Origin: Natronohydrobacter sp.
Lineage (GTDB): Bacteria; Pseudomonadota; Alphaproteobacteria; Rhodobacterales; Rhodobacteraceae
NCBI GenBank assembly: GCA_020832585.1
Contig: JAFIEL010000009.1
Span: forward strand, 1 to 44,054
Direction of reading: 5' to 3'
Length of the DNA: 44,054 nucleotides
In this document: piece by piece, positions 31,570 to 37,344 of the stretch
Numbering within the stretch: position 1 is the first letter of the stretch
Layout: every line of letters begins with the position of its first letter
Translations under genes and position numbers: made by a program
The notes under the pieces: generated by a model
Database searches by the model: none
What the model saw: the letters and a program-made list of their open reading frames with translations, nothing else
Told to the model about the DNA's origin: nothing

Positions 31570-31599
31570 GGGGCGCTTGGAGCCCTTTGCGGACGGTCA
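31567..31599 (+). repeat. short gene-end repeat, family 2 (copy 2), left edge of island
   Basis: TGAGGGGCGCTTGGAGCCCT followed by TTGCGGACGGTCA begins in the TauE stop codon. An inverted partner lies at 33695-33729. Together they bracket the AT-rich darG-darT island and may mark the original junction of two convergent genes. Confidence 0.5.
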
Positions 31600-31732
31600 G
31601 AACTGCTGCGGGTGCAGTCGGCAGAAGCAAGCCATTCTGAAGACATTGATGCAGGAGCCCATTGACACCGCGCCCACGTTTACACCTTCGTACTAGCCCC
31701 CGATACACATTTCCTTGGTGCGGCACCTATAA

Positions 31733-32716
31733 TCAGAACAGGCTATCGTTAAGGCGTATCATCGCCTCATATGCAATGTGGTTCTCTAGTTTAACGCGAA
31801 CGAAATAATTGTCCGGCTCGAGCGTCCTCTTGAGAATCCAGCGCCCCCCAGATTGATTGATGGTCTTGAAGTCATCATTCTGAAAATCAACACAAATCTC
31901 ATTTTGAGTGTTATAAACTTGAATCGCGATTGATACATTTTTTAAATCGTGTCGATGATTTAATCTAAAACTCACCCCTTCTTGGGAAAGGTCGATATCT
32001 GCAACAAATGAAAACCTTTTGTCGAACACCTTTAGTTCTTCCGAAACAGAGCATAATGGCTGCCACTGACGTGCCTCTGCACCCAACCTGTGAAGGAAAG
32101 TGTCGCGTTCGGGCTCCGAACGGAACCAAATGCTAGAAAGTACATCTGCCAATGGCAAGGGCGACGTTGGCAGGACTTCAGCACACCTACGGTCGATAAT
32201 TGAATAATCACCAGCTACCCCACCTTCGTGGAACACTGACGAAAAGGGGATGTTGGAAAAAAACGCCTCGTCATTACCGGTTTGCGCAGCATTTTTCTGC
32301 ATGTTTCGATCTGAGAATAATACATCGGGACGCGTGAGCACGCGTTTTGCGTCAAGTACGAACATTACCAAGACCGGAGCGTGCGCGTCAGGACCGTATT
32401 GGCAGTCCCCATCTTTCCGTATGCCTTCGATATGAAACTGCGTCGGGTTTCGCGGGCGAAAGTAAAGACGTACACGCCCGTGCGCCTCTTGACAATTGTC
32501 AATTACCCCGCCTGCTGCCACATCCTGAACTTGCTGACGTTGTGGATCATTTCGGGCACGCAAGCATCCATCCTTGATGATAGCTAATGCTGTTTCAAGG
32601 GGGGCGTGATGGAACAACCTAGAAGGCCAGTGTTTTCGGTATGTGCGGACCCCGGTGGCGAGTTGTGAGCTCCAATTGTCGATATGTTGATCCACAAAGG
32701 CTTCCGTTAGTGCCAT
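31733..32716 (-). CDS. darT: DarT-like DNA ADP-ribosyltransferase toxin with C-terminal extension
   Basis: This 327-residue protein shows DarT (DUF4433) features. LFHHAPLETALAIIKDG (residues 34-50) has the NAD-binding His region, RLYFRPRNPTQFHI (83-96) corresponds to the family's YF-PR-P-L motif, and RRCAEVLPTSPLPL (176-189) contains Glu180 at the position of the catalytic glutamate. WFRSEPERDTFLHRL follows, as in relatives. DarT enzymes attach ADP-ribose to thymidine in single-stranded DNA and block replication. Residues 228-327 form an extra beta-rich domain, where canonical DarT is roughly 210 residues long. The ATG overlaps the upstream darG stop by 10 bases, so expression is coupled. The family call is from motif reading, not a search. 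Confidence 0.78.
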   Translation of the reverse strand: MALTEAFVDQHIDNWSSQLATGVRTYRKHWPSRLFHHAPLETALAIIKDGCLRARNDPQRQQVQDVAAGGVIDNCQEAHGRVRLYFRPRNPTQFHIEGIRKDGDCQYGPDAHAPVLVMFVLDAKRVLTRPDVLFSDRNMQKNAAQTGNDEAFFSNIPFSSVFHEGGVAGDYSIIDRRCAEVLPTSPLPLADVLSSIWFRSEPERDTFLHRLGAEARQWQPLCSVSEELKVFDKRFSFVADIDLSQEGVSFRLNHRHDLKNVSIAIQVYNTQNEICVDFQNDDFKTINQSGGRWILKRTLEPDNYFVRVKLENHIAYEAMIRLNDSLF

Positions 32717-33606
32717 AGCAATTCAGCTTGTGCGCTTGGGCTTGGTATCTCAAAGGAAGCTGAGAACTCCGGCTTCAACTCGACAGCAATTTCAGGTTCC
32801 GGTCTGCCGTGCCGATGAATTTGTACCGCGCGTACATCTGGCAATAGTTGCATCATTGTCAGCAAGGGTGCAGCGGACCCTTTCGCTGCCCATTCAGCTT
32901 TCTCATTCGTAACTAGGCCATTCAATAGGCTGAGCCATACACCACGCAGGTCGTCTTCTTCGAACAACCAGTCATGATCCTGAGTTTGAATTCGCAGAGC
33001 GTCATTTCTAAAGTCAATTTCGTACTTGCGCTCATCATCTAAACGCAACACTGGTGCAAGCTTCGTTATGCTTTCTAGAGCGCTGACGAAGCCTTGAAAA
33101 GATAAATCTTTTGCCGATTTGCGAACTTCGACAGCAAGCAGTTCAAGGTGTTCTGGTAACCCGATGTCTTTAGTAAAGTCATGTATAAAGACTGGAATAG
33201 CCAGGCTGGATAAGTACCGCTCCATTAACGGTCTTACGTTCTCCCAATCTAGGCCACCGTTTCCACAACCAAGCTTAGGGAAAGCAATGTCAGTCACACC
33301 CTGTGCTTCATAGGTATTGGTAAACTTTTCCAGACCAGCTTCGATCCACTCTATACGCGACGGACTGCGCCAGTGCTTCTTGGTGGGAAAGTTCAGAATC
33401 CAGTGCTCTGAACCTCGCCATAGCCATAGCTTACCAGGTTCCAATAATTTCTGATCACAAATTTGCTTGTAAGCCGTGAACATCTTGGGTTCACGTTCCT
33501 TGAAGGCTTTTGCTATCCCTTTCCCCATGACACCAACGCAGTTTACTGTGTTGACCAGTGTCTGCGTGTTAGCTTCAAGGAGGCTGGTTCTCTTATATGT
33601 CAGCAC
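32707..33606 (-). CDS. darG: DarG-like macrodomain DNA ADP-ribosyl glycohydrolase (antitoxin)
   Basis: This 299-residue protein from the GTG at 33606 fits the usual DarG opening (xLTYKRTSLLEANTQTLVNT) and has AAGGTGG 6 bases upstream. In-frame ATGs at 33642 and 33636 are alternatives. The macrodomain spans about residues 1-150: VNTVNCVGVMGKGIA (ADP-ribose loop), NFPTKKHWRSPSR with Lys76 equivalent to the catalytic Lys of DarG, and FPKLGCGNGGLDW. The domain removes ADP-ribose from DNA and so reverses the toxin. Residues about 165-299 are a separate C-terminal region that I do not recognise and that may bind and inhibit the toxin directly. It is first in the operon, unlike classical darT-darG. 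An exact SOS box lies upstream. Confidence 0.85.
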   Translation of the reverse strand: MLTYKRTSLLEANTQTLVNTVNCVGVMGKGIAKAFKEREPKMFTAYKQICDQKLLEPGKLWLWRGSEHWILNFPTKKHWRSPSRIEWIEAGLEKFTNTYEAQGVTDIAFPKLGCGNGGLDWENVRPLMERYLSSLAIPVFIHDFTKDIGLPEHLELLAVEVRKSAKDLSFQGFVSALESITKLAPVLRLDDERKYEIDFRNDALRIQTQDHDWLFEEDDLRGVWLSLLNGLVTNEKAEWAAKGSAAPLLTMMQLLPDVRAVQIHRHGRPEPEIAVELKPEFSASFEIPSPSAQAELLWH

Positions 33607-33663
33607 GTTCTTCCACCTTTTCTCCCGATGACACATAAACATGTTCTTTCCTACGCTTCAATA

Positions 33664-33678
33664 GAACATAGATAGAAC
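33664..33678. promoter_or_regulatory. SOS box (LexA site) upstream of darG-darT
   Basis: GAAC-ATAGATA-GAAC is an exact match to the direct-repeat LexA site of alphaproteobacteria (GAAC-N7-GAAC / GTTC-N7-GTTC, shown for Rhodobacter recA). It lies 58 bases upstream of the GTG at 33606, or 22 bases upstream of the ATG at 33642, where a promoter is expected. The repeat extends to ATAGAAC-ATAG-ATAGAAC. Island DNA is AT-rich, so chance matches are somewhat more likely than in the core genome. Confidence 0.65.
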
Positions 33679-33694
33679 AAAGCTGCAAGGACAG

Positions 33695-33729
33695 TGACCG
33701 TCCGCTCCGTCCCGCAAAGCCGCCCCTCA
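33695..33729 (-). repeat. short gene-end repeat, family 2 (copy 3, inverted), right edge of island
   Basis: On the minus strand the sequence TGAGGGGCGGCTTTGCGGGA, then CGGAGCGGACGGTCA, begins in the stop codon of the 2-hydroxyacid dehydrogenase gene. It shares its ends (TGAGGGGCG and GCGGACGGTCA) with the copy at 31567-31599 in opposite orientation. Confidence 0.45.
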
Positions 33730-36654: not shown

Positions 36655-37320
36655 TCAGCCATGCTGCGAATCCCCCTTGTGGCGCAGTGGGTGCGCGCAC
36701 AGCCTGTCAGGGCGGTCGCCCGAGACCTGCCAGCAACCGGGCGGGGCCATGCGGGCGCGCAACCGGTCCAGCCGCCACTGGGGTTGCACGGGGTTGTGGC
36801 GCGGCGGGTCCGGGGCCGGGCAGGGGGTCAGGCGCCAGCGGCTTTCCACCCCCGCCGCACCGCCATCGCCCGGTGTCAGGACCAGTCCGAGCAGGCCTGC
36901 CGCGCGTGATGTGCTGCGGCGGCGGGCCAGACCTGTCTCGGCGGCCAGATGCAACCGGCGCAGGGGCGTCAGCGCCGGGGGCGTGGCCAGTTCCGCAACC
37001 ACAAGCTCGACCGCGCCCGAGCGCAACGCCTCTTCCGCGCAGGCCAGGGCCTCTGGTTCGCGCGCGGCGTTCAGGGTGATCAGCCGTTCGGGATTGCCCC
37101 AGTCATTCAGGCCCAGCGGGTTCAACCGGTCACGGTTCCAGCGCGGGCGAATCCACAGCACTGGCCCGGTCGTGGCCGCCAGCATCCAGACCGCCAGCAT
37201 GCGCCGCGCGGGGCCGCAGAATTCATGCGCCCGGCCCGGTTGCAACTGCAAGATCGCGCCCAGCGGCTGCGGGGCGTTGATCGCGGGGGTATCGGTCAGG
37301 GGCGGGGCTATCAGGGTCAT
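36655..37320 (-). CDS. imuA: ImuA-like SOS mutagenesis protein
   Basis: This 221-residue RecA/SulA-like protein without a Walker motif resembles the ImuA partners of ImuB and DnaE2 in translesion synthesis. Relevant stretches are EFCGPARRMLAVWMLAATTG, LNPLGLNDWGNPERLI, ALRSGAVELVVAEL and LGLVLTPGDGGAAGVESRW. An exact SOS box lies 9 bases before its ATG. imuB and dnaE2, which normally follow in one operon, are absent; only a 43-codon frame overlaps its 3' end. It may act with an ImuB encoded elsewhere or be a remnant. Confidence 0.75.
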   Translation of the reverse strand: MTLIAPPLTDTPAINAPQPLGAILQLQPGRAHEFCGPARRMLAVWMLAATTGPVLWIRPRWNRDRLNPLGLNDWGNPERLITLNAAREPEALACAEEALRSGAVELVVAELATPPALTPLRRLHLAAETGLARRRSTSRAAGLLGLVLTPGDGGAAGVESRWRLTPCPAPDPPRHNPVQPQWRLDRLRARMAPPGCWQVSGDRPDRLCAHPLRHKGDSQHG

Positions 37321-37329
37321 ATGTCAAAT

Positions 37330-37344
37330 GTTCCACATTTGTTC
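37330..37344. promoter_or_regulatory. SOS box (LexA site) upstream of imuA
   Basis: GTTC-CACATTT-GTTC is an exact match to the alphaproteobacterial LexA site GTTC-N7-GTTC. It lies 9 bases upstream of the imuA ATG, an expected position for an SOS-controlled gene. It also lies upstream of the divergent I78 inhibitor gene (130 bases), which is a less likely target. Confidence 0.85.

Follow-up and report, generated by a model that had tools for sequence, protein, structure and literature searches.

A putative LexA operator in front of an antitoxin-first DarTG-like operon of Natronohydrobacter sp.

A LexA-type box precedes a two-gene, DarTG-like toxin–antitoxin operon in the window, by which we mean the whole stretch of 44,054 nucleotides analyzed here, taken from a Natronohydrobacter sp. 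draft genome (3.3 Mb, 86.6% complete). Judging from sequence comparisons, we read the operon as an antitoxin-first variant of DarTG that occupies an exchangeable slot, and the box in its promoter as a putative LexA operator (probability about 0.8); the operon is probably switched on by DNA damage. The reading draws on recurrence of the box upstream of homologous operons and on its resemblance to the boxes at SOS genes of the same genome.

The box, the operon, and the slot that holds them

The features discussed below are the following.

31574–33725, no strand assigned: exchangeable slot with the operon and the box, delimited by comparison with sister genome G1365
31733–32716, minus strand: darT-like toxin gene, with an ADP-ribosyltransferase domain (residues ∼10–232) and a C-terminal beta-sandwich
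31736–32011, minus strand: the DarT C-terminal beta-sandwich (residues ∼236–322), beyond the region alignable to solved DarT chains
32707–32716, minus strand: overlap of the darG end with the darT start, 10 nt, from ORF coordinates
32707–33606, minus strand: darG-like antitoxin gene, with a macrodomain (∼33178–33603) and a C-terminal part unmatched by DarG models
33660–33688, minus strand: possible promoter, found by eye, with TTGCAG (33688–33683), a 17-nt spacer, and TCTATT (33665–33660)
33664–33678, minus strand: putative LexA-type operator (SOS box) of darG-darT, from exact match, homologue conservation, and genomic ranking
37330–37344, minus strand: second exact LexA-type box, preceding a weakly imuA-like gene

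The initial annotation described an exact match to the alphaproteobacterial LexA site, placed at promoter distance from an antitoxin-first operon, and both its sequence and its position are borne out. The plus strand at 33664–33678 reads GAACATAGATAGAAC, with coordinates and sequence exact, and the minus strand, in operon direction, reads GTTCTATCTATGTTC. This is an exact GTTC-N7-GTTC at promoter distance from darG; GTTCN7GTTC is the published Caulobacter LexA motif, as given in the available part of PMC12700426. The macrodomain ORF (32707–33642) is open from 33642, and we chose the GTG at 33606 as the probable start because a start in MLTY or MLIY is common to the homologues; the edge of the box then lies 57 nt from it. 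The TTGCAG-17-TCTATT arrangement is a plausible promoter, in which most of the box would fall in the spacer and the rest at the edge of the −10 hexamer. TTGCAA-17-TCTATT occurs in L002 and L005 and partially in L006 and L007; the hexamers in the window are weak, and a consensus promoter scan did not list them.

The DarG-like protein matches Pfam PF01661 (Macro; 2e-18), PADLOC DarG (6.7e-60 over residues 14–155), and solved DarG macrodomains in the PDB. DarG models cover only its first half, and the NCBIfam DarG equivalog NF048014 gave 190.6 against a cut-off of 250, matching at positions 2–149 of 338 only. An NFPTK lysine motif, to which we ascribe a presumably catalytic role, is invariant in 10 of 10 aligned sequences and aligns with the DarG macrodomain structures of Thermus and M. 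tuberculosis. The predicted DarG model is poor in the macro half (mean pLDDT 69). In the comparisons made, no clear match fell to the C-terminal part itself, which is not proof of a new fold.

The DarT-like protein matches Pfam PF14487 (6.4e-13, 49.3 bits against a cut-off of 22.5) and PADLOC DarT (7.3e-10), with no NCBIfam match at E 0.01. In its predicted structure (mean pLDDT 76), residues 10–232 align with Thermus DarT 7omv (Z 17.5, rmsd 2.9, 194 residues aligned), and the best structural matches of the beta-sandwich are Ig/FN3-like (Z 8.7 and below), which is not diagnostic. E180 is invariant in 10 of 10 aligned sequences and is placed opposite the AEFL glutamate of toxin-first DarTs, at an hhalign probability of only 20%; the catalytic glutamate mutants in the available parts of the DarT papers are E160A and E170A (PMC7003065, PMC5179494). 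A Hymenobacter match, H52, lies inside a very long gene annotated as DarT.

The description of the operon as DarTG-like and antitoxin-first thus stands as to both protein families and the gene order, but this is not a textbook DarTG: the order is reversed, DarT carries an extra domain, and DarG models match one half. The same 10-nt overlap was found from match coordinates in L002, L006, L007, and L013. The two genes are probably co-transcribed, and the overlap makes translational coupling possible.

One contig of sister genome G1365 matches the window on both sides of the slot, on the left as far as 31573 (98%) and on the right starting at 33726 (99%). What lies in between in G1365 is different cargo of 2,014 bp, encoding a C5-methylase and an NgoMIV-type restriction enzyme, whereas the window carries there 2,152 bp with 49% GC against mostly 58–68% around it. 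This filling holds darG, darT, and the box, and operator and operon would therefore have arrived together; darG and darT are the only ORFs of at least 100 aa wholly inside it. In the two relatives whose neighborhoods were examined, the operon adjoins TIR-type (Thoeris ThsB-like) genes (L010) or SIR2 and DRT reverse-transcriptase genes (L011). The alternative cargo and these neighbors point to a defense cassette. An exact GAAC-N7-GAAC also lies ∼75 nt before the methylase gene of the restriction–modification cargo in G1365 (L212:257–271), reflecting either chance or a second SOS-linked cargo.

Motif frequency and recurrence among homologous loci

By frequency, the motif alone is insignificant and unremarkable. 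The comparison with expected frequency suggested in the initial annotation gave no support: the window has 2 exact GAAC-N7-GAAC matches against a mean of 0.92 in dinucleotide shuffles, 24 of 100 of which reach 2, and 24 matches against 25.2 expected when up to one mismatch is allowed. The whole genome has 70 exact matches against 99 for a reversed-pattern control, and the motif is thus not enriched genome-wide.

Use of this motif class in the genome, which the annotation had argued from a second exact box near imuA, is confirmed by other genes. The surroundings of every one of the 70 exact sites were examined, of which 68 lie elsewhere in the genome and 2 in the window; 64 of the 70 fall inside some ORF of a simple longest-ORF caller that also swallows real promoters. 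Boxes in promoter position precede the genome's own lexA (L182; LexA 179 bits, above cut-off) and recA (L157; RecA 427 bits, above cut-off), genes recognized, from their N-terminal parts, as UvrA, PcrA/UvrD, and an error-prone DnaE-type (dnaE2-type) polymerase, and a gene for a Y-family polymerase (Pfam IMS). The second box in the window is indeed exact and lies 9 nt before ORF 36655–37320, but that ORF matches the ImuA model weakly (27.8 bits against a cut-off of 150), and a Pfam scan of it returned no match.

We trained a weight matrix, covering the spacer plus six bases of flank at either end, on seven SOS-gene sites with darG left out. By similarity to those sites, the darG box comes 3rd of 70; left-out training sites rank 2nd to 14th, with lexA 14th. 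The best-scoring SOS box (rank 1 of 70) belongs to a 98-aa protein encoded on another contig of the genome (L138:852–1145, contig C56), a candidate SOS-induced small protein that has no Pfam match and, in a slightly longer form, no NCBIfam match. The exact box is present at lexA in all seven homologue-bearing genomes checked, including G014, G735, and G998, which have no near box at their own operon.

Homologues were drawn from whole genomes, named genome contigs, plasmids, and viral contigs, and antitoxin-first loci were found in Rhodobacteraceae, Hoeflea, Gluconacetobacter, and Sphingobium, on Agrobacterium and Rhizobium plasmids, and on one viral contig. L006 comes from Hoeflea alexandrii DSM 16655 and L009 from Sphingobium chungbukense DJ77. 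The conservation check proposed in the annotation came out in favor of the box: an exact GTTC-N7-GTTC, in either orientation, lies within 150 nt upstream of the macrodomain gene start in 13 of the 16 distinct antitoxin-first loci (L001, L002, L003, L005–L013, and L040/L041). The exceptions are L004, with an exact box at −289, L017, and L018. Per-locus dinucleotide shuffles expect 0.0985 loci with a box in total, and the box exceeds chance because it also stands upstream of these homologous operons.

Several choices define this count. Duplicates were dropped beforehand (L014 and L016, identical to L005; L034, to L018; L037, to L001; L039, to L029), as were unpaired or fragmentary loci (L015, L033, L035, L036, L108, and L114). 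L041 duplicates L040, and its sequence represents both; the macrodomain gene start of L010 was set by hand. A Firmicute-looking locus, L183, was kept apart, and including it gives 13 of 17. Of 83 plasmid records, 14 were examined, H8 and H11 being among those outside the 14. A phylum-wide profile search at E 1e-6 added no member, the one genome of 398 being the window's own, with at most five candidates scored in the genomes listed, and the phage records searched contained no DarT relative.

In the box-centered alignment, the half-sites are identical by construction, as rows were picked by motif. The sequence evidence for conservation is instead the count, the diverged flanks, and two spacer T's. 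Around the sites the upstream DNA is diverged, the share of the commonest base in flank columns being mostly 0.33–0.67, and the two T's (GTTC-N4-T-N-T-GTTC), which the search did not demand, are present in all 12 transcription-oriented sites. The box of L012 has the opposite orientation, which is also that of the lexA box, both in the genome of the window and in all seven others checked.

Toxin-first loci provided the comparison: 15 from the same class, drawn from 385 genomes searched with the Pfam DarT model, 20 of which matched, and 6 from alphaproteobacterial plasmids. A box lies within 300 nt upstream in one of these 21 (L027). Because the 13 box-bearing loci share ancestry and are not independent events, the uncollapsed contrast (13/16 against 1/21, p 2e-6) is best read beside that with close relatives collapsed by hand (7 of 10 antitoxin-first against 1 of 19 toxin-first lineages, Fisher p 5e-4).

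Other toxin-first loci stand outside the 1/21 count. The 62 viral loci (L042–L103) comprise 31 unpaired and 31 toxin-first loci, the latter including some duplicates and three without the full 300 nt upstream; one of these 31 has a box (L064). None of three non-alphaproteobacterial plasmid loci (L104–L106) has one. In L064 and L027 the alpha-type box is exact and lies ∼115–120 nt upstream, suggesting either independent gains or chance. Boxes in L019, L020, and L029 were set aside, as they fall within darT and appear to be coincidences of its coding sequence.

A macrodomain tree of 38 rows, in which L032 and L110 form long branches, separates 17 antitoxin-first from 21 toxin-first rows by one branch (100/97). 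The gene order is antitoxin-first in all 17 rows of their branch, the window's included, and antitoxin-first DarTG with the extra DarT domain thus appears to be a separate branch. One antitoxin-first subclade has the box in 12 of 12 rows. In the other, of five rows, the box is near in L012 and distant in L004, and this type is absent from L017, L018, and L183.

Within 500 nt upstream of L017 and L018 there is no alpha-type box even with one mismatch allowed, and these loci were also scanned for Gram-positive and gamma types. L017 has one Gram-positive-type match with one mismatch, at −42. L018 has an exact CTGTGATCGTATACAG, a perfect E. coli-type CTGT-N8-ACAG ∼136 nt upstream of the macrodomain gene; when one mismatch is tolerated, this locus has two matches where 0.72 are expected. 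In its genome, G998, lexA has the alpha box, which does not account for the E. coli-type site. L183, an antitoxin-first operon on a Firmicute-like phage contig, has AAACGTATGTTC at L183:1929–1940, 66 nt before darG. This sequence, which we take to be one base off the Bacillus-type LexA box, is among three matches that turn up when one mismatch is tolerated, where 2.2 are expected, and is no more than suggestive.

Readings of the box and a possible circuit

If frequency were the sole guide, the eight fixed bases could have fallen by accident into an AT-rich promoter: the counts in window and genome agree with this, as does the AT-rich island. We rejected that reading, which has very little probability left given near boxes in 13 of 16 loci where 0.1 were expected, set between diverged flanks, and a spacer and flanks that resemble SOS-gene boxes (rank 3 of 70). 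The box might also belong to the adjoining gene upstream, which encodes a 2-hydroxyacid dehydrogenase and whose end is 48 nt away. But the dehydrogenase gene shares the orientation of darG and is already complete where the box begins, so that the box cannot be its promoter. The window, L010, and L011 also have different upstream neighbors, and in each the box remains with darG; we rejected this assignment too, as scarcely credible.

Who reads the site, and for which gene, leaves more room. A LexA- or CI-like regulator of a mobile element could bind it, or LexA could act as an activator, giving another sign or trigger to the SOS link. The slot is exchangeable, and G288, G998, and G228 have second, weaker LexA-model matches, but the box resembles the host's own SOS-gene boxes and no further ORF of at least 100 aa accompanies darG and darT in the slot, making such a regulator improbable. 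An unlikely but weightier possibility is that the site serves DarG as an inducible repair enzyme with DarT negligible, so that the operon is a repair unit and no defense switch. DarG removes DNA adducts, as reported in the available part of PMC8385414, darG leads the operon, the NFPTK lysine motif is retained in the macrodomain, and darT is short or interrupted in 4 of the 16 antitoxin-first loci. Against this, the other 12 retain a full-length DarT open frame (329 aa or more), the 10-nt overlap is present in all five loci read, and the slot's alternative cargo and the neighbors of L010 and L011 are defense genes. The four affected loci (L004, L005, L009, and L012), and also a toxin-first relative, L108, keep a darG-like gene while darT is variously broken by a stop, an insertion, or IS elements, or left as a fragment. 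Such loss of darT is as expected if the toxin is costly.

Taking the box as a LexA operator of darG-darT, a simple circuit can be proposed. LexA sitting over the promoter would keep expression of both genes low. Damage, stalled replication, or a replicating phage would produce RecA filaments, prompting LexA self-cleavage and release of the operon, and the overlapping genes would yield DarG, an adduct remover, together with DarT, a single-stranded DNA ADP-ribosyltransferase. DNA modification by DarT would in turn provoke SOS and close a positive loop, which DarG would restrain by erasing adducts. The initial annotation envisaged antitoxin rising before toxin; such a timed pulse is a guess, since two genes that share 10 nt are probably transcribed together.

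The premise of that annotation that DarT lesions trigger SOS is already published: DarT induces SOS in the Thermus and EPEC work, and in EPEC a strain whose LexA cannot be cleaved shows greater sensitivity to DarT, according to the available parts of PMC5179494 and PMC7003065. The most likely purpose of the operon is a damage-gated phage-defense or abortive-infection module. A broader proposal, that antitoxin-first DarTG is a distinct SOS-controlled subfamily, a mobile, self-amplifying DNA-ADP-ribosylating switch that adopts each host's LexA box, is tentative and rather doubtful; host-adapted boxes are only hinted at by the E. coli-type site of L018 and the near Bacillus-type site of L183, with the alpha type in 13 of 16 loci.

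The DarTG literature examined is silent, in the parts available, on how darTG transcription is held and released, and a LexA-type operator conserved across most of a DarTG branch would provide a concrete trigger. The box would couple a toxin that modifies DNA to the very pathway by which such lesions are sensed, with a bistable loop as a possible outcome, and offers a way to separate DarTG as a repair unit from DarTG as a damage-gated phage defense. The antitoxin-first branch merits biochemistry in environmental strains, e.g. of Hoeflea and Sphingobium.

Comparison with known systems

The initial annotation knew of no described SOS-controlled DarTG, and we likewise found no description of LexA control of darTG in the available parts of PMC7003065, PMC11437467, PMC11543638, PMC9967889, PMC5179494, PMC8385414, and PMC10732053, with subscription literature mostly outside the search. 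In the EPEC and Thermus DarTG systems, as far as these sources extend, SOS lies downstream of DarT as protection and is not a regulator of darTG transcription. DarTG2 shares with the present operon a DarT-fold ADP-ribosyltransferase and a DarG-type macrodomain in two genes. It is toxin-first, following the usual layout with darT upstream of darG, which is typical rather than defining, whereas the operon here is antitoxin-first, with a DarT beta-sandwich, a half match to DarG models, and a LexA-type box in front.

SOS boxes are also present in the promoters of the E. coli toxin–antitoxin genes yafO and tisAB/istR (available part of PMC8265657). These share SOS-boxed promoters with our operon and differ in their toxins and in the LexA motif. 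To our knowledge, the yafO and tisAB toxins do not modify DNA, and the self-triggering loop is hence absent.

The closest parallel in regulation is higBA of Caulobacter crescentus, which is LexA-repressed and arrived with its own LexA-dependent promoter (PMC13384398, in the part available). It too is an alphaproteobacterial toxin–antitoxin operon arriving with a LexA-type site, but higB comes first and HigB is an unrelated toxin. HigB is an mRNA endonuclease. The LexA-linked higBA insertion is confined, in the portion of that source at hand, to one Caulobacter lineage, whereas the darG box recurs in several alphaproteobacterial genera. LexA-controlled toxin–antitoxin operons are thus already known, and what appears to be new, relative to the available texts, is a LexA-type box on a DarTG variant.
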